42,018 nt of DNA from Verrucomicrobiota bacterium (GTDB lineage: Bacteria; Verrucomicrobiota; Verrucomicrobiia; Limisphaerales; UBA9464), in assembly GCA_947471985.1 (NCBI GenBank), contig CANIZL010000058.1, positions 1 to 42,018 on the forward strand, read 5' to 3'. Positions within the stretch are counted from its first letter, which is position 1. Each line of letters starts with the position of its first letter. Shown piece after piece: positions 14,513-24,294 of this stretch. Under the pieces are notes generated by a model that saw nothing but the letters and a program-made list of their open reading frames with translations, was not told where the DNA came from and did not search any database. Position numbers and translations under genes: made by a program.

Positions 14513-14941
14513 GTGAGACCCGAGGGCCGGCCCAATCGCTCCGAATCCGTCGAGGATCACCTCGAACGGATTCAGGATTTGGTGGATCGCCTCGGCTATG
14601 CGCGCGTCAGCGACGTGGCGGAAGCCTTGGAACTGAGTCGCTCGACGGTTTCCAATATGATCCGGCGCCTCGCGAAAAGGGGCTACGTCAATTATCAGCG
14701 CTATCGCGGTTTTACCCTGACCGAATCCGGGCGGGCGGTGGCGGCAGATATCCGGACACGCCACGAAACCGTCACGGCCTTTCTGCGGCAGCTCGGATTG
14801 GAAAAGGATACGATCGAGGCCGAGGTGGAGGACATCGAGCACCATCTCAAGCCTCAAACCTTGGCGGCGCTCAGCTCGCTGGTGGAGTATTGGGAATCAC
14901 ACCCCACCGCCTTGGCGGCCTTTCGGAAATACCGGCCGTAA
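14513..14941 (+). CDS. mntR: MntR-type manganese-responsive regulator (DtxR family)
   Basis: A 142-residue, two-domain DtxR-family repressor. A winged helix (about 12-75, GYARVSDVAEALELSRSTVS) is followed by a dimerisation helix pair. Alignment by eye to Bacillus subtilis MntR keeps all six manganese ligands: Asp15 and Glu18 in EDHLERI, His84 in RHE, and Glu106, Glu109, His110 in EVEDIEHH. It lacks the SH3-like third domain of DtxR. It starts with GTG, 15 bp after gatA. In this family Mn(II) binding drives operator binding and repression of uptake systems. The metal ABC operon at 20-24 kb is the obvious candidate target. It is convergent with exbD, 21 bp away. Confidence 0.93.
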   Translation: MRPEGRPNRSESVEDHLERIQDLVDRLGYARVSDVAEALELSRSTVSNMIRRLAKRGYVNYQRYRGFTLTESGRAVAADIRTRHETVTAFLRQLGLEKDTIEAEVEDIEHHLKPQTLAALSSLVEYWESHPTALAAFRKYRP

Positions 14942-14962: not shown

Positions 14963-15391
14963 TCAGGGTCCCTGTTTGGTGAAGGCGCGAACCACGGTGA
15001 GATTCGCCTGCTTGGCAAAACTCATGGCGCGGGCCACGTGCTCCCAGCTCGCATCCTTATCGGCCCGCAATACCAAACGAGTTTGGGCGTCCTTGGCACC
15101 GGCCGATTTCATTTCCGCCAGTAATTGATCCGGGGTCACCGGTCGGCTGCCGATGAAATAGGTGGGATCAGTCGCGGTCGCGCGGGCAATGGTTACGACC
15201 AGCGGGGGCTTGGCCTCGCCGGCACCTGCCTTCAGGGCATCCCCGACGTCCGGCAGGTTGAGTTTTACGGCCGGCTGATTCCGGAACGTGGACGTCACCA
15301 GCAGGAAAACCAGCATCACGATCAAGACGTCGATCAATGAGATGATGATAATGCCGGGCGCGGTCCGGCGGCGGCGGGGATAAAAGCTCAT
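14963..15391 (-). CDS. exbD: ExbD/TolR-family biopolymer transport protein
   Basis: A 142-residue partner of ExbB that turns the proton gradient into force on outer-membrane receptors or the Tol-Pal system. A short basic cytoplasmic N-terminus is followed by one membrane helix with the essential acidic residue Asp21 in SLIDVLIVMLVFLLV. A periplasmic domain follows, with the standard strand/helix pattern (RLVLRADKDASWEHV). The start codon overlaps the exbB stop by four bases, so the two are translationally coupled. No TonB or receptor is adjacent, so the energised process is unknown. Confidence 0.9.
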   Translation of the reverse strand: MSFYPRRRRTAPGIIIISLIDVLIVMLVFLLVTSTFRNQPAVKLNLPDVGDALKAGAGEAKPPLVVTIARATATDPTYFIGSRPVTPDQLLAEMKSAGAKDAQTRLVLRADKDASWEHVARAMSFAKQANLTVVRAFTKQGP

Positions 15392-16017
15392 CGCCGCTCC
15401 CGGGTTGATTCCACGCCGGCTTCGGCGCGCGGGGTTTTGAGGTACCGTTGACGGAGCAGTTCATCGCAACAGGACTCAAGTTCCAATGCGAGGGCCTCGA
15501 CCCGCTTGTTCAAAATGCTCCAGCAGGCCAGTGTCGGGATGGCCACCATCAGCCCGAGCAACGTCTTGTTCAAGGCCGCACCGATGCCTTTGGCCAGCAG
15601 CGTGTTGTCCCCCGCGACGGCCTTGCCGAAGTCGCCGAACAACGGGATGATGCCGTAGATCGTTCCCACCAGCCCCAGCAATGGGGCGATGCCGACGATT
15701 ACTTCGAGGATGACCAACCCGCGCTCGAGGGACAGCACTTCCCGGCGGGCCGCGATGGTCACCGCCGCGGTATTGTCTTCCCGGACGTACGGCAAATGAT
15801 CGAGGATGATTCGCAGAAGGCGTCCCAGTGGAGTCGGACTGGCGGTGCATGCGCCACGCAAGACGTCATCCTCGGCCCCGAGTTGTTGGATCAGCTGCGA
15901 CGGGACGATTGCCGCCCGGCGCAATGACCAAAATCGTTCCAATACTACGGCCAGGGCAATCACGGAAAGCCCGAGCAACGTCCACCCAAAAAAACCGGCA
16001 TCACTCAACCAAGACAT
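15388..16017 (-). CDS. exbB: ExbB/TolQ/MotA-family proton channel protein
   Basis: A 209-residue protein with three membrane segments: about 8-27, 105-130 (VGIAPLLGLVGTIYGIIPLF) and 150-172. The central signature PLLGLVGTIYG and the following KGIGAALNKTLLGLMVAIP are typical of ExbB/TolQ. Five ExbB units surround an ExbD dimer to form the motor. It is the first gene of a two-gene minus-strand unit with exbD. The 361-bp region upstream separates it from divergently read hisC and probably holds both promoters. Confidence 0.92.
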   Translation of the reverse strand: MSWLSDAGFFGWTLLGLSVIALAVVLERFWSLRRAAIVPSQLIQQLGAEDDVLRGACTASPTPLGRLLRIILDHLPYVREDNTAAVTIAARREVLSLERGLVILEVIVGIAPLLGLVGTIYGIIPLFGDFGKAVAGDNTLLAKGIGAALNKTLLGLMVAIPTLACWSILNKRVEALALELESCCDELLRQRYLKTPRAEAGVESTRERR

Positions 16018-16378
16018 GCTGCACCGTGCACCAACCGAACCATGCCGTCAGGTGGAATCCGCGCCGGAGCAGCAGCTTCGAGAGGTAACGGCCAACCACC
16101 CCAAAACGGCGCCCGGTGACAGCATTCGGCCTTTCCGATGAACTGCTTTCTGATCGATTCAGTTTGCCCCCCCGGGACCAACGACGCAGCGCACAGCAGC
16201 GGGGGAAACCCATCCAAAACGTGAACCTGGCACCCTATCATCGAGCAGGTTCGGGATTGAGGGGCAGGTTCGGGATTGAGGGTGGCGCCTTTGTATTGGG
16301 GTGCCTCCGGTTGGCTACCGCATCCGGGTCCTCCACCGCCTTTGCCTTTGTTCCGACCGGCTACCAGATTGCACCCGC
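16018..16378. other. Intergenic region between exbB and hisC
   Basis: This is 361 bp between divergent genes and should contain both promoters. I find no convincing ORF, RNA gene or strong sigma-70 promoter pair by eye. The only clear structure is a tandem 19-bp duplication near 16245-16282, listed separately. Confidence 0.6.
16245..16282. repeat. Tandem 19-bp direct repeat, two perfect copies
   Basis: GCAGGTTCGGGATTGAGGG occurs twice in immediate succession (16245-16263 and 16264-16282), about 97 bp before the hisC start. With two copies it may be a replication-slippage duplication rather than a regulatory array. Confidence 0.9.
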
Positions 16379-17485
16379 ATGAGTTCTGTCTTGTCTCGAT
16401 TGAATCCACAATTGGCGTCGCTGCCCGTCTACATCCCGGGGAAACCCATCGATCAAGTCGCCCGCGAACACGGTCTCGATCCCGCCGGAATCATCAAGCT
16501 GGCCTCCAACGAGAATCCCCTGGGCCCCTCCCCCAAGGCCCTCGCGGCGATGCAATCGGCCCTCCCCCACATGCACCTGTACCCGGATGGATCCTCCCAC
16601 GATTTGAAAGCAGCGCTCGCCAGCGCCCAAGGGGTGGAGCCGGCCAATCTGGTGCTCGGCAATGGCTCCAACGAAGTCCTCGAGCTGGTCGCCCATGCCT
16701 TTCTCTCGCCCGGTGATGAAGTCGTGGTCTCGCAATACTGCTTCGCGGTCTATCCCATCATCACAGCCCTCATGGGTGCCCGCCTCGTGACGGTGCCCGC
16801 CCTGCCCGGATTTGCCGCGGATATTCCGGGAATGCTCCAGGCAATCACCCCCCGTACGAAGGCGGTGTTCCTGGCCAATCCAAACAATCCCACCGGCACC
16901 CTGACGTCGCGCGAGGACGTAGCGCAGCTATTGGCCGAAGTTCCATCCGACGTCCTGCTGGTCCTCGACGAGGCCTACGTCGAATTTCTGACCGATTCCA
17001 TCGACCTCCTGCCGCTGATCCGGGCCGGGGTCCACGACAACCTGCTGCTCACACGCACGTTCTCGAAGATTTTCGGGTTGGCCGGTCTGCGCCTCGGTTA
17101 TGGCATCGGCAGCCCGGGACTAATCTCCGCACTCGAGAAAGTCCGGCAGCCGTTCAACATCAACTCCGTGGCCCAAGCCGGTGCCGTCGCCGCGCTGCAG
17201 GATTCCGAGCACATCCGCCAGACCCGCCAGAACAATCGCGCGGGACTGGAATACCTCGAGCGCTCCTGTGCCGAGTTGGGGTTGGAAATCGTTCCGTCCC
17301 ACGCCAACTTCATTCTGGTAAAGGTCGGTAACGGCGCCGGCGTTTTTCAAGCCCTGCAAAAGCAGGGGGTCATCACCCGGCCCATGGGCTCGTATCAGCT
17401 GCCGGACTGGCTCCGAGTTTCCGTGGGTACGGCGGCGGAAAACCAGCGTTTCATCGCTGCACTGCGCAATATTCCGGGACGTTAG
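16379..17485 (+). CDS. hisC: Histidinol-phosphate aminotransferase
   Basis: A PLP enzyme converting imidazole acetol phosphate to histidinol phosphate in histidine synthesis. Some homologues also act on aromatic amino acids. The 368-residue protein has KLASNENPLGPSPKA (35-54), LGNGSNEVLE, ANPNNPTGT (167-174), VLDEAYVEF with the PLP-contacting Asp197/Tyr200 region, and the Schiff-base lysine Lys230 in TRTFSKIFGLAGLRLGY. The C-terminal Arg-containing DWLRVSVGT binds substrate carboxylate/phosphate. The ATG at 16379 starts the conserved N-terminus, and an upstream in-frame ATG (16301) would add an unrelated tail. No other his gene is near. It converges on the YugP-like gene. Confidence 0.93.
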   Translation: MSSVLSRLNPQLASLPVYIPGKPIDQVAREHGLDPAGIIKLASNENPLGPSPKALAAMQSALPHMHLYPDGSSHDLKAALASAQGVEPANLVLGNGSNEVLELVAHAFLSPGDEVVVSQYCFAVYPIITALMGARLVTVPALPGFAADIPGMLQAITPRTKAVFLANPNNPTGTLTSREDVAQLLAEVPSDVLLVLDEAYVEFLTDSIDLLPLIRAGVHDNLLLTRTFSKIFGLAGLRLGYGIGSPGLISALEKVRQPFNINSVAQAGAVAALQDSEHIRQTRQNNRAGLEYLERSCAELGLEIVPSHANFILVKVGNGAGVFQALQKQGVITRPMGSYQLPDWLRVSVGTAAENQRFIAALRNIPGR

Positions 17486-17551
17486 TCCATCAACCTGACC
17501 GTCAAACCCGCGCCAATCGTCACCCGGCCCGGGTCCGCATCAGCCTCACCT

Positions 17552-17584
17552 AAAAAAGCCGGGGCGATCCCCTGATCGCCCCGG
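17552..17584 (-). terminator. Rho-independent terminator of the YugP-like gene
   Basis: A perfect 11-bp GC-rich inverted repeat with arms 17559-17569 and 17574-17584 encloses a 4-base loop. On the minus strand it is followed directly by six T (17557-17552). It sits 35 bp past the stop of the minus-strand peptidase gene and also separates it from convergent hisC. Confidence 0.93.
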
Positions 17585-17619
17585 TCACACACAAAGACGG
17601 ACCGCTGGTCCGCCCCAAA

Positions 17620-18318
17620 TCAATCGCGGCTGTTGCTGCTGCGACTGCCGGTCAATAACGGCAGCAAGTACCACAGGAAGTACACCGCCGACGTCACAAA
17701 GGCGGCGACATACGTCATTGCCGCGGCATTGAGCACGCGAGCGACTCCGGCGCTCTCGGTCGGATCCGATACGAATCCCATCCGCGACAACGCGGCCTTG
17801 GCCCGGTTTGAAGCATCAAACTCCACCGGCAAGGTCACGAGGTTAAACGCCATGATGACACCCCATCCCAGCGCCATGATGAGCAGTCCCGTGTAGGTGC
17901 TCAGCACGTGGGTAAACATGCCAATCAGCGGTACAATGGACACGATCTGACTGGCAAAGTTGGTCGCGGTCACCGCCCCCATGCGCAGATGCAAGGGCGC
18001 GTAGGCCGCCTGGTGTTGCAAAGCATGACCCGCTTCGTGGGCGGCCACGCCGATCGCCGCCAGCGAAGTGCCGTGGTAGTTATCGGATGACAAAACCAGG
18101 CGCTTGTTGAGCGGATTATAGTGATCCCCCAGCATGCCCTCTTGTGACACAATTTCCACGTCACTGATGCCGGCTTGTCGCATCATGGCACTGGCCACCT
18201 GAGCACCCGTGTAGCCCGCCCGGGCGGGCACGCTGCTGAACCGGTGATACACCCGCTTTACCTGCCACTGAGCCAGGAGCGAGATCACCAAGGTTACTCC
18301 AAATATCAAGAATATCAT
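17620..18318 (-). CDS. YugP-like membrane zinc metallopeptidase
   Basis: A membrane-bound neutral zinc metallopeptidase of the YugP family (Pfam Zn_peptidase_2), 232 residues. The start at 18318 (MIFLIFGVTLVISLLAQWQV) puts the first membrane helix at the N-terminus. A longer frame upstream lacks such logic. The zinc motif HEAGHALQH is at about residues 94-102. Three hydrophobic helices follow (around 118-150 and 195-220) and there is a YNPLNKRLVLSS segment typical of the family. Substrates are unknown in this family. The gene stands alone and ends at a strong terminator. Confidence 0.9.
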   Translation of the reverse strand: MIFLIFGVTLVISLLAQWQVKRVYHRFSSVPARAGYTGAQVASAMMRQAGISDVEIVSQEGMLGDHYNPLNKRLVLSSDNYHGTSLAAIGVAAHEAGHALQHQAAYAPLHLRMGAVTATNFASQIVSIVPLIGMFTHVLSTYTGLLIMALGWGVIMAFNLVTLPVEFDASNRAKAALSRMGFVSDPTESAGVARVLNAAAMTYVAAFVTSAVYFLWYLLPLLTGSRSSNSRD

Positions 18319-18531
18319 AAGTCCCAAGTTCCAATGAGTACCAACTGTACGGCCCCACCGCACCCACGGCGGGCTCGATCCCTCAACCCATGCCACGAAT
18401 CGCCATTAACGGCAATCCGGTTGGGATTTCCCCAGCACATTCCAAGCCGGGTGGGACCGCCGCCAGATTCCCCCTCGGAGCCCCCACTCCGGGGGTTGTC
18501 ACCGGGACGGATTGCTTGCAGTTTTCCGACC

Positions 18532-19878
18532 ATGAAATTCCCCTCCTGGCTGTTCGCTGCCGCCTTGGGTCTGGTGCTGGCCGGCTCCCTGTCCGGTGCC
18601 GCCGCTCCCCGGGTCTCCCTTCAACTCGTCGCCGAAGGCTTGGTCTCGCCCGTCTCCCTCGCCCCCTTGCCCGACCAGCAATTGCTCGTCGTGGATCAGA
18701 TCGGCCACGTCCGGCTCATTGATGCCTCGGGCCGACTCGCCCCGGACTCCGTACTCGACTGGACCGGAAAGCTCTCGGAGATCAACAAGGGTTCCTTCGA
18801 TGAACGAGGTCTTCAATGCCTCGCCCTGCACCCGGGCTTCGCCAAAAACCGCCGGATCTTTCTCACCTACACCGGCCCCCGCCGCAGCTCCGCGCCGGCG
18901 AACTACGATTGCGTTCTGCGACTCAGCGAATTCACCCTGCCCGAAGCCAGTCCGCTCCGCATCGATCCGGCCAGCGAAAAAGTCCTCCTGGAGATCGACA
19001 AACCGTACTTCAACCACAACGGCGGCCGCATCGCTTTCGGACCGGATGGTCTTCTGTACGTGTCAGCCGGCGACGGTGGCGGCCCCAAGGGATGCGACAT
19101 CGGCGAGGGCCATGCCCCGGAAGGCAATGGACAAAACCTGAAAACGTTGCTCGCGAAAATCCTGCGGGTCGACGTGGATCAGCGGGACGCACAACGCAAC
19201 ACCGCTTATGCGATCCCCCGCGACAATCCCTTCGCCACCACCCGGGACGCGCTCCCCGAAATCTACGCCTACGGCGTTCGGAACCCGTGGAGCCTGACCT
19301 TCGACCGCGCCGGTGATCGCGCCCTCTACATCGCTGACGTCGGACAGATGCGTTGGGAGGAGATCGACATCATTCAGAAAGGCGGCAATTACGGCTGGCC
19401 CCTGCGGGAAGGCTTTGACGGTTTCAATCGCGAGCACCCGGAACTCGCGCCCACCTCTGTGCCAACGCTGGGTCTGCGGGGCGAAGCCCTCTTGAATCCC
19501 GTGGCGGCGTACAAGAACGCGAGCGGATTCAAAAACGATCCCGAAGCGCTGGGTATCTGCGTCACCGGTGGCTATGTCTATCGCGGCAAGGCCATGCCGG
19601 AATTCTCGGGAAATTATCTTTTCGGTGACTGGTCCGGGGCACAAGGCACCCCACAAGGTCGGATACTGATCGCGTGGCGGCCCACCGCTGGATCCACTCC
19701 GAAACCGGGTTGGAAAATCGAGCCCGTGCGGGTGGCGAACAATCACAAACTCTTTGGTTGCGTCTGCGGGTTCGGCGAGGACAACAACGGTGAACTCTAT
19801 TTACTGACGAACGGATCCGCCGCCCTCACTCCGGGACGGGGACGGGTTTATAAGCTCGGCCCCGCTCCGGCGCTCTGA
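18532..19878 (+). CDS. Secreted glucose/sorbosone dehydrogenase-like beta-propeller protein
   Basis: The ATG at 18532 starts a signal peptide (MKFPSWLFAAALGLVLAGSL, cleavage near AAA-PR). The mature part (448 residues in all) is a six-bladed beta-propeller of the GSDH/PQQ-dependent sugar dehydrogenase family. Landmarks are GLQCLALHPGFAKNRRIFL, FNHNGGRIAFGPDGLLYVS, KILRVDVD, YAYGVRNPWSLTFD and EEIDIIQKGGNYGWP. These proteins bind PQQ in the periplasm and oxidise sugars, but many relatives have no shown activity. There is no haem motif or c-type domain. The ORF extends upstream without a signal, so that extension is dropped. It converges with the metal transporter operon. Confidence 0.9.
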   Translation: MKFPSWLFAAALGLVLAGSLSGAAAPRVSLQLVAEGLVSPVSLAPLPDQQLLVVDQIGHVRLIDASGRLAPDSVLDWTGKLSEINKGSFDERGLQCLALHPGFAKNRRIFLTYTGPRRSSAPANYDCVLRLSEFTLPEASPLRIDPASEKVLLEIDKPYFNHNGGRIAFGPDGLLYVSAGDGGGPKGCDIGEGHAPEGNGQNLKTLLAKILRVDVDQRDAQRNTAYAIPRDNPFATTRDALPEIYAYGVRNPWSLTFDRAGDRALYIADVGQMRWEEIDIIQKGGNYGWPLREGFDGFNREHPELAPTSVPTLGLRGEALLNPVAAYKNASGFKNDPEALGICVTGGYVYRGKAMPEFSGNYLFGDWSGAQGTPQGRILIAWRPTAGSTPKPGWKIEPVRVANNHKLFGCVCGFGEDNNGELYLLTNGSAALTPGRGRVYKLGPAPAL

Positions 19879-19985: not shown

Positions 19986-20951
19986 TCAGGAACCCACTTC
20001 TGGCTCAGGTGCGGGTTCCTCCAATACGTTCCGGCGCCAGCGCCAGAGAAGCCCATTGGTGGGATTGAAGACCCACGCCAGGCAGAACAGCCCGGCTCCC
20101 GCCACCACCATCGCCGCACCGATGGAGCAATCCCACCAAACCCCCAGGTGCAAGCCGATGACCGAACTCAACAGACTGTGCACCACATTCAAACCCAGCC
20201 GCGTCGGCAAACGCTGCGCCAGCAACGACGCCGTCGCCCCGGGAAGAATGAGCATGGCAATCACCAGGATCGCCCCGACGGCTTCAAACGCGCTCACCAC
20301 CACAATCGACAGCCACAGCATGAGTCCGTGATGGACCCAGATTGAGGGAATCCCCAGCGAGGACGCCAATATGCCGTCGAAGGACGTCACGAGCAGTTCC
20401 TTGTAGAAGCACACCACCATGGCCACGGTGATCAGCGCCACCACCGCCATGCGCACTACCGCCGGCGGTCCCAAAGTCCAACCCGCCAACTTCACCGGAG
20501 CCATCAGGGGCACCAGCGCCAGTTCGCCGTTCAAAACGCAGTCCTGATCCAGATCAACCCGATCGGCAAACAGACTGATCAGCACCACGCCGAGCGCAAA
20601 TAGACTGGAGAAAACCACCCCAATCGCCGCGTCCTGTTTGATGCGGGCCCGCCGGTGAATCCAATCAATCAACCAGGTGGTCAGCAGCGCCGCCGCCAAA
20701 GCACCGACAAACATCGCACCCGAGGATCGGGTCCGGGCGATGAGAAAGGCGATCACCAACCCGGGCAAAACACTGTGACTGATGGCATCACCCACCAGCG
20801 ACATCCGACGCAGGATCAAGAATTTGCCCACCAGGCCGCAAGCGAGCGAGACCAGGAAGCCCATGAGCATGATCCAGCCGAAGAGACCAAAATCCCGCGT
20901 CCACGGCTGCACGAAAACGTGATGCCAATCAAAGGTCGGAAAGAGGTTCAT
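19986..20951 (-). CDS. ytgD: Metal ABC transporter permease (YtgD/ZnuB-like)
   Basis: A 321-residue inner-membrane permease of the ABC-3 family (Mn/Zn/Fe uptake) with eight or nine hydrophobic helices. It carries the family loop RMSLVGDAISHSVLPGLVIAF near 50-70 and the second EAA-like segment SFEAVGAILVIAMLILPGATASLL. It is the last gene of a four-gene operon, 4 bp after the fusion permease. The tail after the last helix (about residue 295 onward) is short and charged. Two different permeases in one operon suggest a heterodimeric channel, as in chlamydial YtgC/YtgD and treponemal TroC/TroD. The metal specificity cannot be read from the sequence. The symbol is by analogy. Confidence 0.9.
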   Translation of the reverse strand: MNLFPTFDWHHVFVQPWTRDFGLFGWIMLMGFLVSLACGLVGKFLILRRMSLVGDAISHSVLPGLVIAFLIARTRSSGAMFVGALAAALLTTWLIDWIHRRARIKQDAAIGVVFSSLFALGVVLISLFADRVDLDQDCVLNGELALVPLMAPVKLAGWTLGPPAVVRMAVVALITVAMVVCFYKELLVTSFDGILASSLGIPSIWVHHGLMLWLSIVVVSAFEAVGAILVIAMLILPGATASLLAQRLPTRLGLNVVHSLLSSVIGLHLGVWWDCSIGAAMVVAGAGLFCLAWVFNPTNGLLWRWRRNVLEEPAPEPEVGS

Positions 20952-20955
20952 AGGC

Positions 20956-22470
20956 TCATTTTCCGTAACCCGCGACCGTGGTGGGTCGGGGTGCCTTTTC
21001 CCCGCCCCGACGGAGATCTGCCAGCGAAGGGATCGGACGCCCGTGCGGATCGTATTTGGCGAAGCTCAGGCGCCGCTCCAACTCCCGCACGGCATCGGCC
21101 CCCAAAACATGTTCGATGCGCTCGGCATCGTCGTGCACATGATCGGGCGGGATTTGGGCGGCCTGCGTCAGGTAGAGTTCCCAGAGTCGGTGATTCCGAA
21201 CGATCTCACACGCCCGCTGCCAACCCGCGGGAGTCAGGGTCAGCGAGGCCTCATCGGCCCCCATCGTGGCGAGTTGATGGCTCACCAGCATCCGGGCTTC
21301 CCGCTCGGAAATCTTCAAGGTAATGCGTCGCCGATCCGCGAGTTGAAGCAACGACACCACGTCCGACCGAAATTCAGCCTCCTCCAGAATGTGAAACACG
21401 GCCTTGAGCGTGTTTTCGCGGGCGATGCGGTGCGACTGCGATTTTTCGCGCCACCAGCGAGCAATAATTCCGCGCCGCGGCGCGAATAAAAAAGCCAGAC
21501 CAAACCCCGAACTGGCCGCCAGCACCATCAACGGACCCGTGGGCAAATTGCTGCCCAGAAACGACAGAAAAGCGCCCATGATGCCCGCCGTCACTCCCAG
21601 CAAGGCCGAGAGCGGCAGCAATCGATGGAACCGGTCGGTTAACAAACCCGCGGTCGCCGCCGGGGTGATCAGCATGGCCGAAACCAAAACCACGCCCACC
21701 GCCTGGAGCGAAATCACCACCGAAAAGGCCAGCAACACCATCAATAGGTGATCAAACCACCGCGCCGGCAGACCGCAGACCCGGCTGAACACCGGATCAA
21801 AGGACACCAGCAACAACTCCTTGTAGGCCACCACCACGATGCCCGTGACCAAGGCACAGACGATCCCCATCAGCCAAAGGTCCGCCGGCTTCAACGCCGC
21901 GGCCTGTCCAAACAGGAAAGAGGTGATGCCGCTTTGATTTCCCGTGGGAAGTTTCTGCAGCCGGGTGACCAGGCACATCCCCAGGGAAAAATATCCCGCC
22001 AAAACCATGCCCAGAGCCGTGTCCTCCTTGATCCGCGTGGTCCGCGTGATGGCCGAGACGGTCAATGTACCCAACAACCCCGCCAACGTCGCACCAATGA
22101 AGATGGCCACGGGATCCTTGCTGGCATTCCATAAGAATCCCAGCGCCACACCCGGCAGCACCGCATGCGACAGGGCGTCCCCCACCAGCGCCATTTGGCG
22201 AACCACCAGAAAAGCACCTAACAATCCGCAGGCCAAGCCCAGGAGCACCGCCCCGGCGAGCGCATACCGCACAGAAGGATCCGCCAGTGAGCCAAACCGC
22301 AACGCCTGGCCCCACCAGTGCGATTCGCTGACGTTGCCGATCTTGGCGGCTTGTACCGTCGGCAACACCAGCAACCAGCCGATCAGGCCAAGAGCCGATA
22401 CCCAAAGGCGAAGGCCACCCCGGATCCACGCGGCCACAGATCGGCAAAAATCGAGCAAGGATCGCTGCAT
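20956..22470 (-). CDS. ytgCR: Metal permease fused to DtxR-family repressor domain (YtgCR-like)
   Basis: A 504-residue fusion. Residues 1-335 are an ABC-3 metal permease (RQMALVGDALSHAVLPGVAL at 91-110). Residues about 350-485 are a DtxR/MntR-type repressor: winged helix (350-420), then HRLWELYL (His427), DDAERIEH (Glu450, Glu453, His454) and YDPHGRPIP. The gene order and fusion match chlamydial YtgC-YtgR, where the C-terminal domain is cut off and represses transcription in response to iron. The fold's other metal ligands are altered. The residues that align with MntR Asp8 and Glu11 are Asn353 and Lys356. A 15-residue basic linker (about 332-350) joins the halves. It follows the ATPase gene by 1 bp. 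Confidence 0.93.
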   Translation of the reverse strand: MQRSLLDFCRSVAAWIRGGLRLWVSALGLIGWLLVLPTVQAAKIGNVSESHWWGQALRFGSLADPSVRYALAGAVLLGLACGLLGAFLVVRQMALVGDALSHAVLPGVALGFLWNASKDPVAIFIGATLAGLLGTLTVSAITRTTRIKEDTALGMVLAGYFSLGMCLVTRLQKLPTGNQSGITSFLFGQAAALKPADLWLMGIVCALVTGIVVVAYKELLLVSFDPVFSRVCGLPARWFDHLLMVLLAFSVVISLQAVGVVLVSAMLITPAATAGLLTDRFHRLLPLSALLGVTAGIMGAFLSFLGSNLPTGPLMVLAASSGFGLAFLFAPRRGIIARWWREKSQSHRIARENTLKAVFHILEEAEFRSDVVSLLQLADRRRITLKISEREARMLVSHQLATMGADEASLTLTPAGWQRACEIVRNHRLWELYLTQAAQIPPDHVHDDAERIEHVLGADAVRELERRLSFAKYDPHGRPIPSLADLRRGGEKAPRPTTVAGYGK

Positions 22471-22471
22471 C

Positions 22472-23260
22472 TTACGATTTCTGCCGGACAGCTTCCGCCA
22501 CTTCGCTCAGAATCGTCAGGCGGCCGCCGTAGGTTTTCTGCAACAGATCATACGTGAAGACTTCCTCGGTCTTGCCGAAAGCCACCACCCGCATGTTCAG
22601 CAGAAGCAGCATGTCGAAGTAATTGCGGGCAGTCGGCAGATCGTGGTGCACCACCAGGATCGTCTTGCCCCGGTTCCGCAATTCATGGAGGAGCTCGATG
22701 ATGGCCGACTCGGTGGCGGCATCGACGCCCGCGAACGGTTCGTCCATGAAATAAACGTCGCTCTCCTGCGCGAGGGCCCGGGCCAGAAAGACCCGCTGCT
22801 GTTGCCCTCCGCTCAGATTCGCAATCTGCCGATCGGCAAACGGCAGCATCTTCACTTTTTCCAGACACGCCCGGGCAATGTCGCGGTCCGCCGCACCCGG
22901 TCGACGGAACAGTCCCAGCCGCCCGTAGCGTCCCATCAATACCACATCCATCACGCTGACGGGAAAATCCCAGTCCACCGACTCCCGCTGGGGAACGTAG
23001 CCAATGCGCTTGAGTTGCTCCTTTACTGGCCGCCCAAAAACCTTCACCCATCCCCCGCTTACGGGCAGCAGGCCCATCGCCGCCTTGATTAAAGTGGATT
23101 TGCCGGCGCCGTTGGGACCGAGGATCCCGACCAACTGTCCCGGCGGCACTTTGACATCGATGCCCCACAGCACCGGCCGCTTCTGATACGCCACCGTCAG
23201 GTCATGCACCTCCAACGGGACCTGTTCGTCGGCGAGAGATTCCAGCGGATTCGCCATCAT
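22472..23260 (-). CDS. ytgB: Metal ABC transporter ATP-binding protein
   Basis: A 262-residue ATPase of the Mn/Zn/Fe ABC-3 class (MntB/ZnuC/TroB/YtgB). Walker A is GPNGAGKST (48-56), signature LSGGQQQR, Walker B VYFMDEPFAGVD, and the H-loop is in VHHDL. The start ATG overlaps the binding-protein stop by four bases (ATGA), which implies coupling. A second ATG directly follows. Gene order (binding protein, ATPase, fusion permease, permease) matches chlamydial ytgABCD. The symbol is used by analogy. Confidence 0.94.
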   Translation of the reverse strand: MMANPLESLADEQVPLEVHDLTVAYQKRPVLWGIDVKVPPGQLVGILGPNGAGKSTLIKAAMGLLPVSGGWVKVFGRPVKEQLKRIGYVPQRESVDWDFPVSVMDVVLMGRYGRLGLFRRPGAADRDIARACLEKVKMLPFADRQIANLSGGQQQRVFLARALAQESDVYFMDEPFAGVDAATESAIIELLHELRNRGKTILVVHHDLPTARNYFDMLLLLNMRVVAFGKTEEVFTYDLLQKTYGGRLTILSEVAEAVRQKS

Positions 23261-24222
23261 CGGAGCGCTTCGATGATGGTGTGAACGTTGTGCCGGATCA
23301 TGCCGTCGTAGGTTCCTAAATCATAATCCCGCTCACGCCGGCCCAGTACACCCATGGCGTCGGAGAAAAGTTCACCTCCGACCGTAACGCCGGCATCGCG
23401 ACTAATTCGTTCGATCGTGGTATGCGGCACGCTGGATTCGACAAAAATCGATCGCACATGCTGATCGCGAATGTAGTCGACCAGCTTGGCCATATCGGCC
23501 AACCCCGCCTCGGTGACGGTCGAAATGCCCTGAAGGGCGATAACCCGGAAGCCGTAGGTCCGGCCGAAGTAATTGAAGGCATCGTGACTCGTCACCAGGA
23601 TCCGCCGCGCTTCCGGAATCTCAGCGACCTTGGTCTTGACCCATTCATGGAGTTCGCGCAGCGACTTCTGGACGGCTGCTCCACGTTGTTCAAACGCGGC
23701 CTTTTCCGATGGACGCAAATTCGACAGGATGGTCACAATGGAGCGGGCGCAGAAACTCCAGGACTCCACGTCGAACCAGACATGGGGATCGAATTGCCCT
23801 TCAAATCCCTCGGGGCGCAGCAGCTTTTCCCGCGGCACTGTGTCCGTCACCGCGTGCGCCCGTTTCACCGTGCCCCCCAGCGAGGCGAGGACATCCTGCA
23901 TTTTGCCCTCCAGATGCAAGCCGCTGTAGAGCACCAGTTCAGCACGTTGAAGGCGAACCAGATCGTCGGCCGTGACCTTGTACAAATGCGGATCCACTCC
24001 CGGCCCCATCAACGTCTCCACCGCCACCGCGTCACCGCCAATGCGCTTGGCAAGGTCCGCCACCATTCCCACCGTGGCGACCACGGTGATGACACCCGTG
24101 GCTGCGGGTGCGGACGCGGGTGCCCCCGATCGATCGCAGCCCGCCAACACCGCTGCCGTCATCAGGAGAAATTCACGCCGCCCAAACCGGACCGCCCCCT
24201 GTCCCGCCTCGTTTTCCATCAT
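23257..24222 (-). CDS. ytgA: Metal-binding lipoprotein of cluster A-I (TroA/YtgA/ZnuA-like)
   Basis: Substrate-binding protein that catches divalent metal outside the membrane and hands it to the permeases. The candidate ligands are the A-I set: DPHLYK, DPHVWFD and TSHDAFNYF histidines and the C-terminal LFSDAM aspartate. The N-terminus has GRREFLL followed by a hydrophobic stretch and lipobox LAGC (Cys29), so it may use the Tat route and be lipid-anchored. ATG 24222 is preferred over ATG 24219 or an upstream GTG at 24234; the choice is uncertain. The His-rich loop of ZnuA is missing, which argues for Mn or Fe rather than Zn. Confidence 0.92.
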   Translation of the reverse strand: MMENEAGQGAVRFGRREFLLMTAAVLAGCDRSGAPASAPAATGVITVVATVGMVADLAKRIGGDAVAVETLMGPGVDPHLYKVTADDLVRLQRAELVLYSGLHLEGKMQDVLASLGGTVKRAHAVTDTVPREKLLRPEGFEGQFDPHVWFDVESWSFCARSIVTILSNLRPSEKAAFEQRGAAVQKSLRELHEWVKTKVAEIPEARRILVTSHDAFNYFGRTYGFRVIALQGISTVTEAGLADMAKLVDYIRDQHVRSIFVESSVPHTTIERISRDAGVTVGGELFSDAMGVLGRRERDYDLGTYDGMIRHNVHTIIEALR

Positions 24223-24276
24223 TACAGATCGCACCGGTCCCCAACATCGGGAGGCGAAGGTGTAAAATCAATAATT

Positions 24277-24294
24277 TGTTTTAACGTTAAAACA
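24277..24294. promoter_or_regulatory. 18-bp perfect palindrome, candidate metalloregulator operator
   Basis: TGTTTTAACGTTAAAACA is a perfect inverted repeat of two 9-base arms with no spacer. It lies 54 bp before the ytgA start in an AT-rich patch of an otherwise GC-rich region. Size and symmetry fit a site for a dimeric DtxR/MntR-family repressor. It is in the gap between divergent ytgA and the SLBB-protein gene, so it may affect either. No copy was noticed elsewhere in the window. Confidence 0.62.

Follow-up and report, generated by a model that had tools for sequence, protein, structure and literature searches.

A DtxR-derived tail on a manganese/iron-type ABC permease of Verrucomicrobiota: a candidate metal sensor that may have given up DNA binding

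Introduction

Does a repressor-like domain fused to the membrane protein of a metal importer still act as a repressor? The question is raised by a locus of a Verrucomicrobiota bacterium (positions 1 to 42,018 of contig CANIZL010000058.1; this whole stretch of 42,018 nucleotides is hereafter called the window), in which an ABC-3 permease carries a C-terminal domain of the DtxR type. The fusion itself is not new, as orthologues of such permease-repressor fusions have already been reported in 11 bacterial phyla (Thompson et al. 2012, as cited in the review PMC5599777). In the literature searched, functional data were found only for YtgCR of Chlamydia trachomatis, whose repressor part, YtgR, reportedly undergoes cleavage and binds DNA in an iron-dependent manner (PMC5599777, PMC6504234), the reported fragment being of 28 kDa, or 30 kDa when FLAG-tagged (PMC7755916). 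After YtgCR, the fusions found across many phyla have been read as tethered repressors awaiting cleavage. A search of the open-licence literature by title and abstract, which is no proof of absence, found no non-repressor role for such tails.

The earlier note on this DNA followed the same reading and suggested that the released-repressor circuit may also exist in the lineage of the window. The data presented below rather suggest another use of the tail, in which the metal site is kept and DNA binding may have been given up.

Gene organization of the locus

The four genes of the operon all lie on the minus strand, in the order substrate-binding protein (SBP), ATPase, fusion and tail-less permease (Table 1). 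Both the 504-residue permease/DtxR-type fusion described in the earlier note and its comparison of this gene order with that of the YtgCR operon are borne out by the open reading frames and Pfam matches; the strand of the fusion, which that note did not give, is added here. The fusion is not an artefact, since orthologues with identical gene order were found in other genomes of the order. Its first 66 residues form an N-terminal extension with a signal-like hydrophobic stretch ahead of the permease core; similar extensions are seen in relatives and contain His in one of them (L082).

Table 1. Features of the window discussed in the text (aa, amino acids; TM, membrane helix; HTH, helix-turn-helix)
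Feature	Position	Strand	Basis
Fused C-type permease, ABC-3 plus DtxR-derived tail, 504 aa	20956..22470	-	ORF list and Pfam
ABC-3 permease domain, residues 67-329	21484..22272	-	Pfam, 5e-67
Basic linker between the glycine that ends the last TM (residue 334) and helix 1, which starts at residue 352	21415..21471	-	Alignment
Degenerate winged-HTH stretch, about residues 363-412	21235..21384	-	No PF01325 match
Fe_dep_repr_C metal-binding/dimerisation domain, residues 413-481	21028..21234	-	Pfam, 7e-23
Second (D-type) permease, 321 aa, without tail	19986..20951	-	ORF list and Pfam
ATPase	22472..23260	-	Pfam; best NCBIfam models are manganese/iron ABC ATPases, below cut-offs
SBP, ZnuA family	23257..24234	-	Pfam and NCBIfam
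Perfect 18-bp palindrome TGTTTTAACGTTAAAACA, upstream of the SBP gene, candidate operator	24277..24294	no strand	
Standalone MntR, 142 aa, PF01325 and PF02742	14513..14941	+	Pfam

The window also carries a complete standalone MntR, absent from the earlier note and located about 9 kb from the upstream region of the operon. The gap between mntR and the operon (15388-19878) contains, by eye, look-alikes of ExbB/TolQ, HisC, a zinc metallopeptidase and a PQQ-type sugar dehydrogenase.

The likeness to C. trachomatis YtgCR (CT069) includes the association of an ABC-3 permease with a C-terminal DtxR-type domain, the succession of a fused and an unfused permease, the metal motif and the offset of 18 residues in the linker.

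Domains of the tail

The tail of the window fusion carries PF02742 (Fe_dep_repr_C) with a metal ligand pattern (Pfam and alignment). The ligand-like residues in the alignment are H427, E431, H446, E450, E453 and H454, whose putative roles as ligands are taken from alignment to the DtxR/MntR numbering. Nearly all tails keep these residues and the variation consists mainly of D in place of H or E, at the positions of H98 and C102, D still being a metal-binding side chain. What is directly visible in the window tail is its covalent fusion to the importer and this ligand pattern; it would bind metal and would lie on the cytosolic side. A letter pattern used for the ligands disagrees with the alignment on one of 51 chlamydial tails, and counts of helix-1 ligands by regular expression were dropped as evidence, being inconsistent between groups.

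The DNA-binding family PF01325 is absent from the Pfam listing of the window fusion at E-values up to 10, a listing of limited meaning because the HMMER filters discard most matches above about 0.1. It matched none of 35 Verrucomicrobiota tails at E-values up to 1, which is a weak sign by itself, gave weak matches (best 0.008) in 8 of 74 tails from planctomycetes, Bacteroidota and Kiritimatiellae, and matched at most one of 66 chlamydial tails, being missing among the best 25 of 38 families. Among 38 standalone control regulators, 20 match PF01325 and 18 also miss it. Absence of PF01325 was therefore rejected as sole proof of HTH loss, and the case rests instead on paired conservation and on deletions. 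The 18 controls that miss the family include a series of standalone proteins from Pseudomonadota (L319-L336), which have E and C at ligand positions of their metal domain and are possibly another group with an atypical HTH.

The homology of the tails with the winged helix is still recognisable at profile level, across the whole repressor core, and the winged helix may keep a structural role in them. The tail therefore has an evident likeness to MntR, DtxR, IdeR and SloR, with which it shares Fe_dep_repr_C and the ligand pattern, but it differs from them in being attached to the membrane, in its degenerate HTH and in the presence of a separate true MntR. An AlphaFold model of the window tail alone (pLDDT 46.8, pTM 0.27) is too poor for any structural conclusion.

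Conservation of the HTH and metal segments

The fate of the two parts of the tail was compared in 15 genomes of the clade of the window, each encoding both a fused tail and an MntR-type protein; G217, which has no second PF02742 match, and G216, G230 and G246 were excluded. The HTH of the fused tail is less conserved than that of MntR in 95 of the 105 pairs, and the metal segment of the fused tail is more conserved than that of MntR in 100 of them, these pairs sharing branches and thus not being independent. The median identities are 0.38 (HTH) and 0.84 (metal) for the fused tails and 0.49 and 0.50 for MntR. Outside the family of the window, the MntRs compared are only 36-45% identical and may not be orthologues; within it, the comparison of the window with seven genomes gives 33-49% identity for the HTH of the fused tail, against 78-87% for that of MntR. 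To judge from these alignments, the HTH of the fused tail is unconstrained in the clade of the window, while the HTH of MntR is kept in the same genomes.

The ratio of HTH identity to metal identity extends this pattern to other groups. It reaches 0.49 in the clade of the window and 0.41 in other C tails of Verrucomicrobiota (four of which, L058, L079, L082 and L086, come from operons with an unfused D permease). The D tails give 0.35, Planctomycetota 0.41, Bacteroidota 0.34 and the larger-genome Chlamydiota 0.31. Four groups of standalone regulators stand higher, at 0.75, 0.66, 0.75 and 0.60. At metal identities of 0.75-0.9, the HTH identity in the clade of the window (0.38) is not far below that of standalone regulators from Pseudomonadota (0.44).

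Among Chlamydiota, the small-genome group comprises 15 loci (L279-L293, genomes of about 1.0-1.3 Mb), including L285, which we take to be C. trachomatis, partly from its WWW motif; two members, L292 and L293, are only 41-43% identical to L285 though they belong to the group. The ratio in these 15 tails is 0.72, like that of true repressors, and DNA binding by C. trachomatis YtgR is therefore compatible with the data; the published experiments are not disputed. Eleven of the 66 chlamydial tails have about 20 residues fewer between helix 1 and the metal domain; judged by its length, what is left there is too short for an ordinary HTH (the ratio in this subset is 0.55). The motif R/H/R/L/W/E plus H..AE..EH is nonetheless invariant in the alignment of all 66 tails.

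No other PF02742 match was found in the 33 chlamydial genomes searched, which include all 11 with a shortened HTH, an absence that is soft as the completeness of these genomes is not given. In three other genomes of the 116 from Chlamydiota (G265, G337 and G390), the A1 profile described below finds a match of standalone size. YtgCR thus differs from the window in two respects: constraint on the HTH is seen in the tails of the 15 small chlamydial genomes and not in the clade of the window, and no other PF02742 match was found in those 15 genomes whereas the genome of the window encodes two further ones.

The linker between the membrane and the tail

In 174 of 175 fused tails, helix 1 starts 18 residues after the glycine at the end of the last membrane helix, according to the alignment, and a single tail has an offset of 17 (L052, which has a long extra C-terminus, is excluded from this set). 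A simple letter pattern recovers the offset of 18 in 162 of the 175. It is kept across four phyla and in both types of permease. The distance from the same glycine to the metal site varies from 64 to 126 residues. The basic character of the linker would place the metal domain on the cytosolic side, following the positive-inside rule.

The earlier note had proposed this basic linker as the cut region, which agrees poorly with both its length and the published fragment. Indeed, a protease-sensitive linker needs no fixed length, so that the constancy in 174 of 175 tails counts against a cut site. Furthermore, in L285 the tail counted from the linker amounts to 17-19 kDa, less than the 28 kDa of the published fragment, and a fragment of 28-30 kDa would take up the last 240-260 residues and reach into the membrane domain, a comparison of masses in which gel mobility could mislead.

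Control of the operon

The genome of the window encodes two further PF02742 proteins, both with PF01325: the MntR of the window and a second standalone MntR-type regulator (G000:C137:11684-12025). The MntR of the window matches PF01325 at 3e-16 and scores 133.4 bits against the NCBIfam model of MntR (NF003025), just below the cut-off of 138. In two genomes of the family of the window (L369 and L371), orthologues of this protein with 71% and 75% identity sit right next to the fused operon in divergent orientation, and so does a more distant MntR in L045. No MntR was found beside the operon in the fetched stretches of L370 and L372-L375, i.e. two of the seven complete operons of the order of the window are positive. 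A second PF02742 protein is present in 16 of the 17 fused genomes of this order. The loci of Planctomycetota and Bacteroidota were mostly picked for a nearby standalone DtxR, and adjacency in these phyla gives no rate.

The palindrome noted at 24277 is real, perfect over its 18 bp. TGTTTTAACGTTAAAACA is the sole match in the window at up to three mismatches, where 0.01 is expected in shuffled sequences, the pattern having been chosen post hoc, and by eye it resembles elements upstream of the operons of L371 and L373. Two boxes, an MntR-type one (AAAnTTAGCCnnnGCTAAnTTT) and a DtxR-type one (TTTTGAnTAnTCAAAA), were derived from upstream regions that were later scored with them, so that their P values are circular. 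With this reservation, AAAnTTAGCCnnnGCTAAnTTT reaches a shuffle P of 0.005 in six of ten window-type single-fusion loci (L045, L046, L370, L372, L374 and L375) and 0.040 in L369, with no P under 0.05 in 18 other loci; TTTTGAnTAnTCAAAA reaches P values of at most 0.05 in 10 of these 18 loci and in none of the ten. The upstream region of the operon in the window does not match AAAnTTAGCCnnnGCTAAnTTT (8 of 17 letters, P 1.0).

The standalone MntR (14513-14941) is the most likely transcriptional regulator of the operon. Since TGTTTTAACGTTAAAACA resembles the elements of L371 and L373 by eye and mismatches the derived box, we only infer that this MntR is the ligand of the palindrome.

Distribution and origin of the fusion

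A profile (A1) built from the 35 Verrucomicrobiota tails, without L052 and its long extra C-terminus, matches proteins in 104 of 116 genomes of Chlamydiota, 132 of 246 of Planctomycetota, 104 of 349 of Pseudomonadota and 208 of 296 of Bacteroidota, counts that include standalone regulators and partial matches and that may be low for the last three phyla, where 9 to 13 candidates were scored per genome. Full-length fusions occupy at least 22 rows in Bacteroidota, among which we count Ignavibacteriae, presumably in line with GTDB usage. A fused permease from Kiritimatiellae is 72% identical to one from another genome of the phylum of the window. No complete fusion was found among the matches listed for the 349 genomes of Pseudomonadota; a 416-aa frame of G897, from the same phylum, has a split A1 match and may be a fusion.

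A match on an Azospirillum plasmid spans residues 91-469 of the fusion in one piece. On plasmids of two halophilic archaea (NC_015667.1 and NZ_CP040331.1), a permease gene adjoins the gene of a metal-dependent regulator and both fall under one match to the fusion, which is possibly the order that preceded the fusion.

The phylogeny of 123 permease domains, computed with the quick search of IQ-TREE and with SH-aLRT as the only support measure, separates C-types from D-types; the C side unites the permeases of this type from the window clade, Chlamydiota, Bacteroidota, Planctomycetota and other Verrucomicrobiota. On the C side, every row is fused except L305, L306, L307 and an unrelated permease from the genome of the window; tails occur in 21 of the 60 D-side rows, including a long-branched row from Bacteroidota (L359). 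The clade of the window (8 rows, support 99) and that of Chlamydiota (15 rows, support 100) share the C side without being exclusive sisters. As the sequences were collected by a search for tails, unfused C-types are under-sampled and fusion events are not countable from this tree.

The grouping of the fused C-types on one side indicates that parasitism did not give rise to the fusion. Furthermore, as this permease lineage is common to Chlamydiota, Planctomycetota and Bacteroidota, the fusion is wider than chlamydial parasitism and, on this phylogeny, probably predates it. The early origin suggested in the earlier note is supported to that extent, for the fusion; the special tie that it drew to YtgCR is not supported, as the two clades are not exclusive sisters and fusions had already been reported in 11 phyla.

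Related architectures

In nine Verrucomicrobiota loci (L047-L051, L053-L055 and L057), both permeases are tailed. Seven of these (all but L054 and L057) carry, at most about 2.5 kb from the operon, a DtxR that combines HTH, metal and FeoA domains. Both permeases are also tailed in 20 of 30 fused planctomycete loci (L195 and L250-L278, short stretches of which some are near-identical). Many C tails of double-fusion operons have D in place of the H and E/C ligands (VDRDAD), and the D tails of such operons in Verrucomicrobiota retain the H and E ligands.

Three D-type permeases, two from Poribacteria (L305 7754-8863 and L306 2908-4059) and one from a planctomycete (L307 538-1680), have an HTH-like tail without metal domain, the A1 profile covering only its first 113 positions. 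These tails are the converse of the chlamydial ones in which the HTH is missing.

The module is not restricted to ABC permeases. Relatives from the order of the window encode proteins of about 340 aa made of one membrane helix, the same linker, a DtxR domain and a FeoA-type C-terminus. In L377 (4982-8294), a metal domain and two FeoA stretches (Pfam) are directly followed by genes for the FeoB GTPase and gate. Similar helix-DtxR-FeoA proteins are seen in L080, L081, L083, L084, L085, L208 (2178-3188) and L364 (1000-2025). Inspection of 11 FeoA-type proteins revealed an N-terminal hydrophobic helix in eight, with an offset of 18 in seven of these and of 19 in L210; L060 and L061 have no such helix and L308 is ambiguous. 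The tethered module is therefore, as judged from domain order and offset, also placed on a second, unrelated iron importer, Feo. The likeness to the FeoA-FeoB system lies in the membrane helix-linker-DtxR module with its 18-residue offset and two FeoA domains that precede the FeoB genes in a relative; the difference is that the transporter is another one and is not within the window.

Function of the tail

We consider it somewhat better than an even chance that the tail is a DtxR-derived metal sensor that has given up DNA binding and gates import by the Mn/Fe-type importer to which it is attached. The first permease would carry a cytosolic domain sensing metal on behalf of the transporter. In DtxR and MntR, bound metal links helix 1 to the dimerisation domain. 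When cytosolic manganese or iron rises, the metal would in the same way close helix 1 onto the metal domain of the tail; as an inflexible linker ties helix 1 to the last membrane helix, its movement could pull this helix, or lock paired tails together, and thereby slow import (trans-inhibition). In operons with two tailed permeases, the two tails could pair like a DtxR dimer. Such feedback would be fast and would complement the slower transcriptional control by MntR.

The strong conservation of the metal/dimerisation motif, the fixed length of the linker, the relaxation or loss of the HTH and the separate PF02742 regulator in 16 of 17 genomes all favour such a sensor, as do the shortened HTH of 11 chlamydial tails with an invariant metal motif and the use of the tethered module next to FeoB genes. 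Against it stand the HTH-like tails devoid of metal domain (L305, L306 and L307), which the model does not explain, the tail-less partner permease of the window, which leaves the geometry of a dimer unclear, the reported cleavage and DNA binding of C. trachomatis YtgCR, the constrained HTH of the small-genome chlamydial group to which it belongs, the winged-helix homology that persists at profile level, the standalone-size matches in three genomes of Chlamydiota, and the adjacency of MntR in only two of seven operons. There is precedent for the proposed logic only: trans-inhibition by cytosolic dimerising domains of other folds is described as established for MetNI (C2 domain) and ModABC (C-terminal domain) in the review PMC10710835, a substrate-binding domain of the importer halting transport. 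These domains differ from the window tail in their fold and in their location, on the ATPase instead of the permease, and the main text of that review does not mention 'DtxR'.

The tail could instead be a metal acceptor or buffer that takes manganese or iron from the permease and passes it on or stores it, without gating. This is unlikely in our judgement, even though the metal motif is the best-kept part of the tail and the basic linker would make it cytosolic by the positive-inside rule. Indeed, a buffer would tolerate changes in the linker, so that the locked offset counts against it and, together with the kept dimerisation helices, suggests a mechanical or oligomeric role.

Release of the tail as in YtgCR, the cut-off repressor then acting on the operon at the palindrome under high metal, seems more doubtful still. 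It draws on the architecture and gene order common to both systems, on reports that the C. trachomatis protein is cleaved and binds DNA in a metal-dependent manner (PMC5599777, PMC6504234), on the palindrome upstream of the operon and on the constrained HTH of the small-genome chlamydial group. However, the HTH has drifted in the clade of the window (38% median identity, against 49% for the retained HTH of MntR), an MntR orthologue adjoins the operon in two relatives, the HTH is cut in 11 chlamydial tails from genomes in which no other PF02742 match was found, and neither the fixed linker nor the published fragment mass fits a cut in the linker. The same circuit as in YtgCR, put forward in the earlier note, is thus poorly supported for this clade.

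There is very little chance that the tail pairs with a standalone MntR/DtxR through their common dimerisation fold and keeps it membrane-bound depending on the state of metal or transport: the second PF02742 protein of 16 among 17 fused genomes in the order and the adjacency of MntR in two relatives would suit such sequestration, but the motif is invariant in 66 chlamydial tails while no partner was found in the 33 genomes searched, and the window tail and MntR score best against different NCBIfam models. Equally improbable is a purely structural role, in which the tail would serve to dimerise or stabilise the transporter complex, with a metal site that is only structural; the tailing of both permeases in many operons fits a dimer within the transporter, but the ligands are kept in nearly all tails and the D replacements preserve metal-binding side chains.

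Conclusions

More broadly, the fusions of PVC bacteria and Bacteroidota may be mostly non-repressors, representing an ancient metal-sensing module that gates Mn/Fe importers in cis and is also found in Feo, with DNA binding by YtgR kept or regained only in Chlamydiaceae, a generalization that remains tentative and to which we give a little less than even chances. If most of the fusions are metal sensors borne by transporters, they would provide a feedback route for Mn/Fe ABC importers that was not found described in the literature searched, and the DtxR fold would have a second use. This would also raise the question of how YtgR came to DNA binding in Chlamydiaceae.
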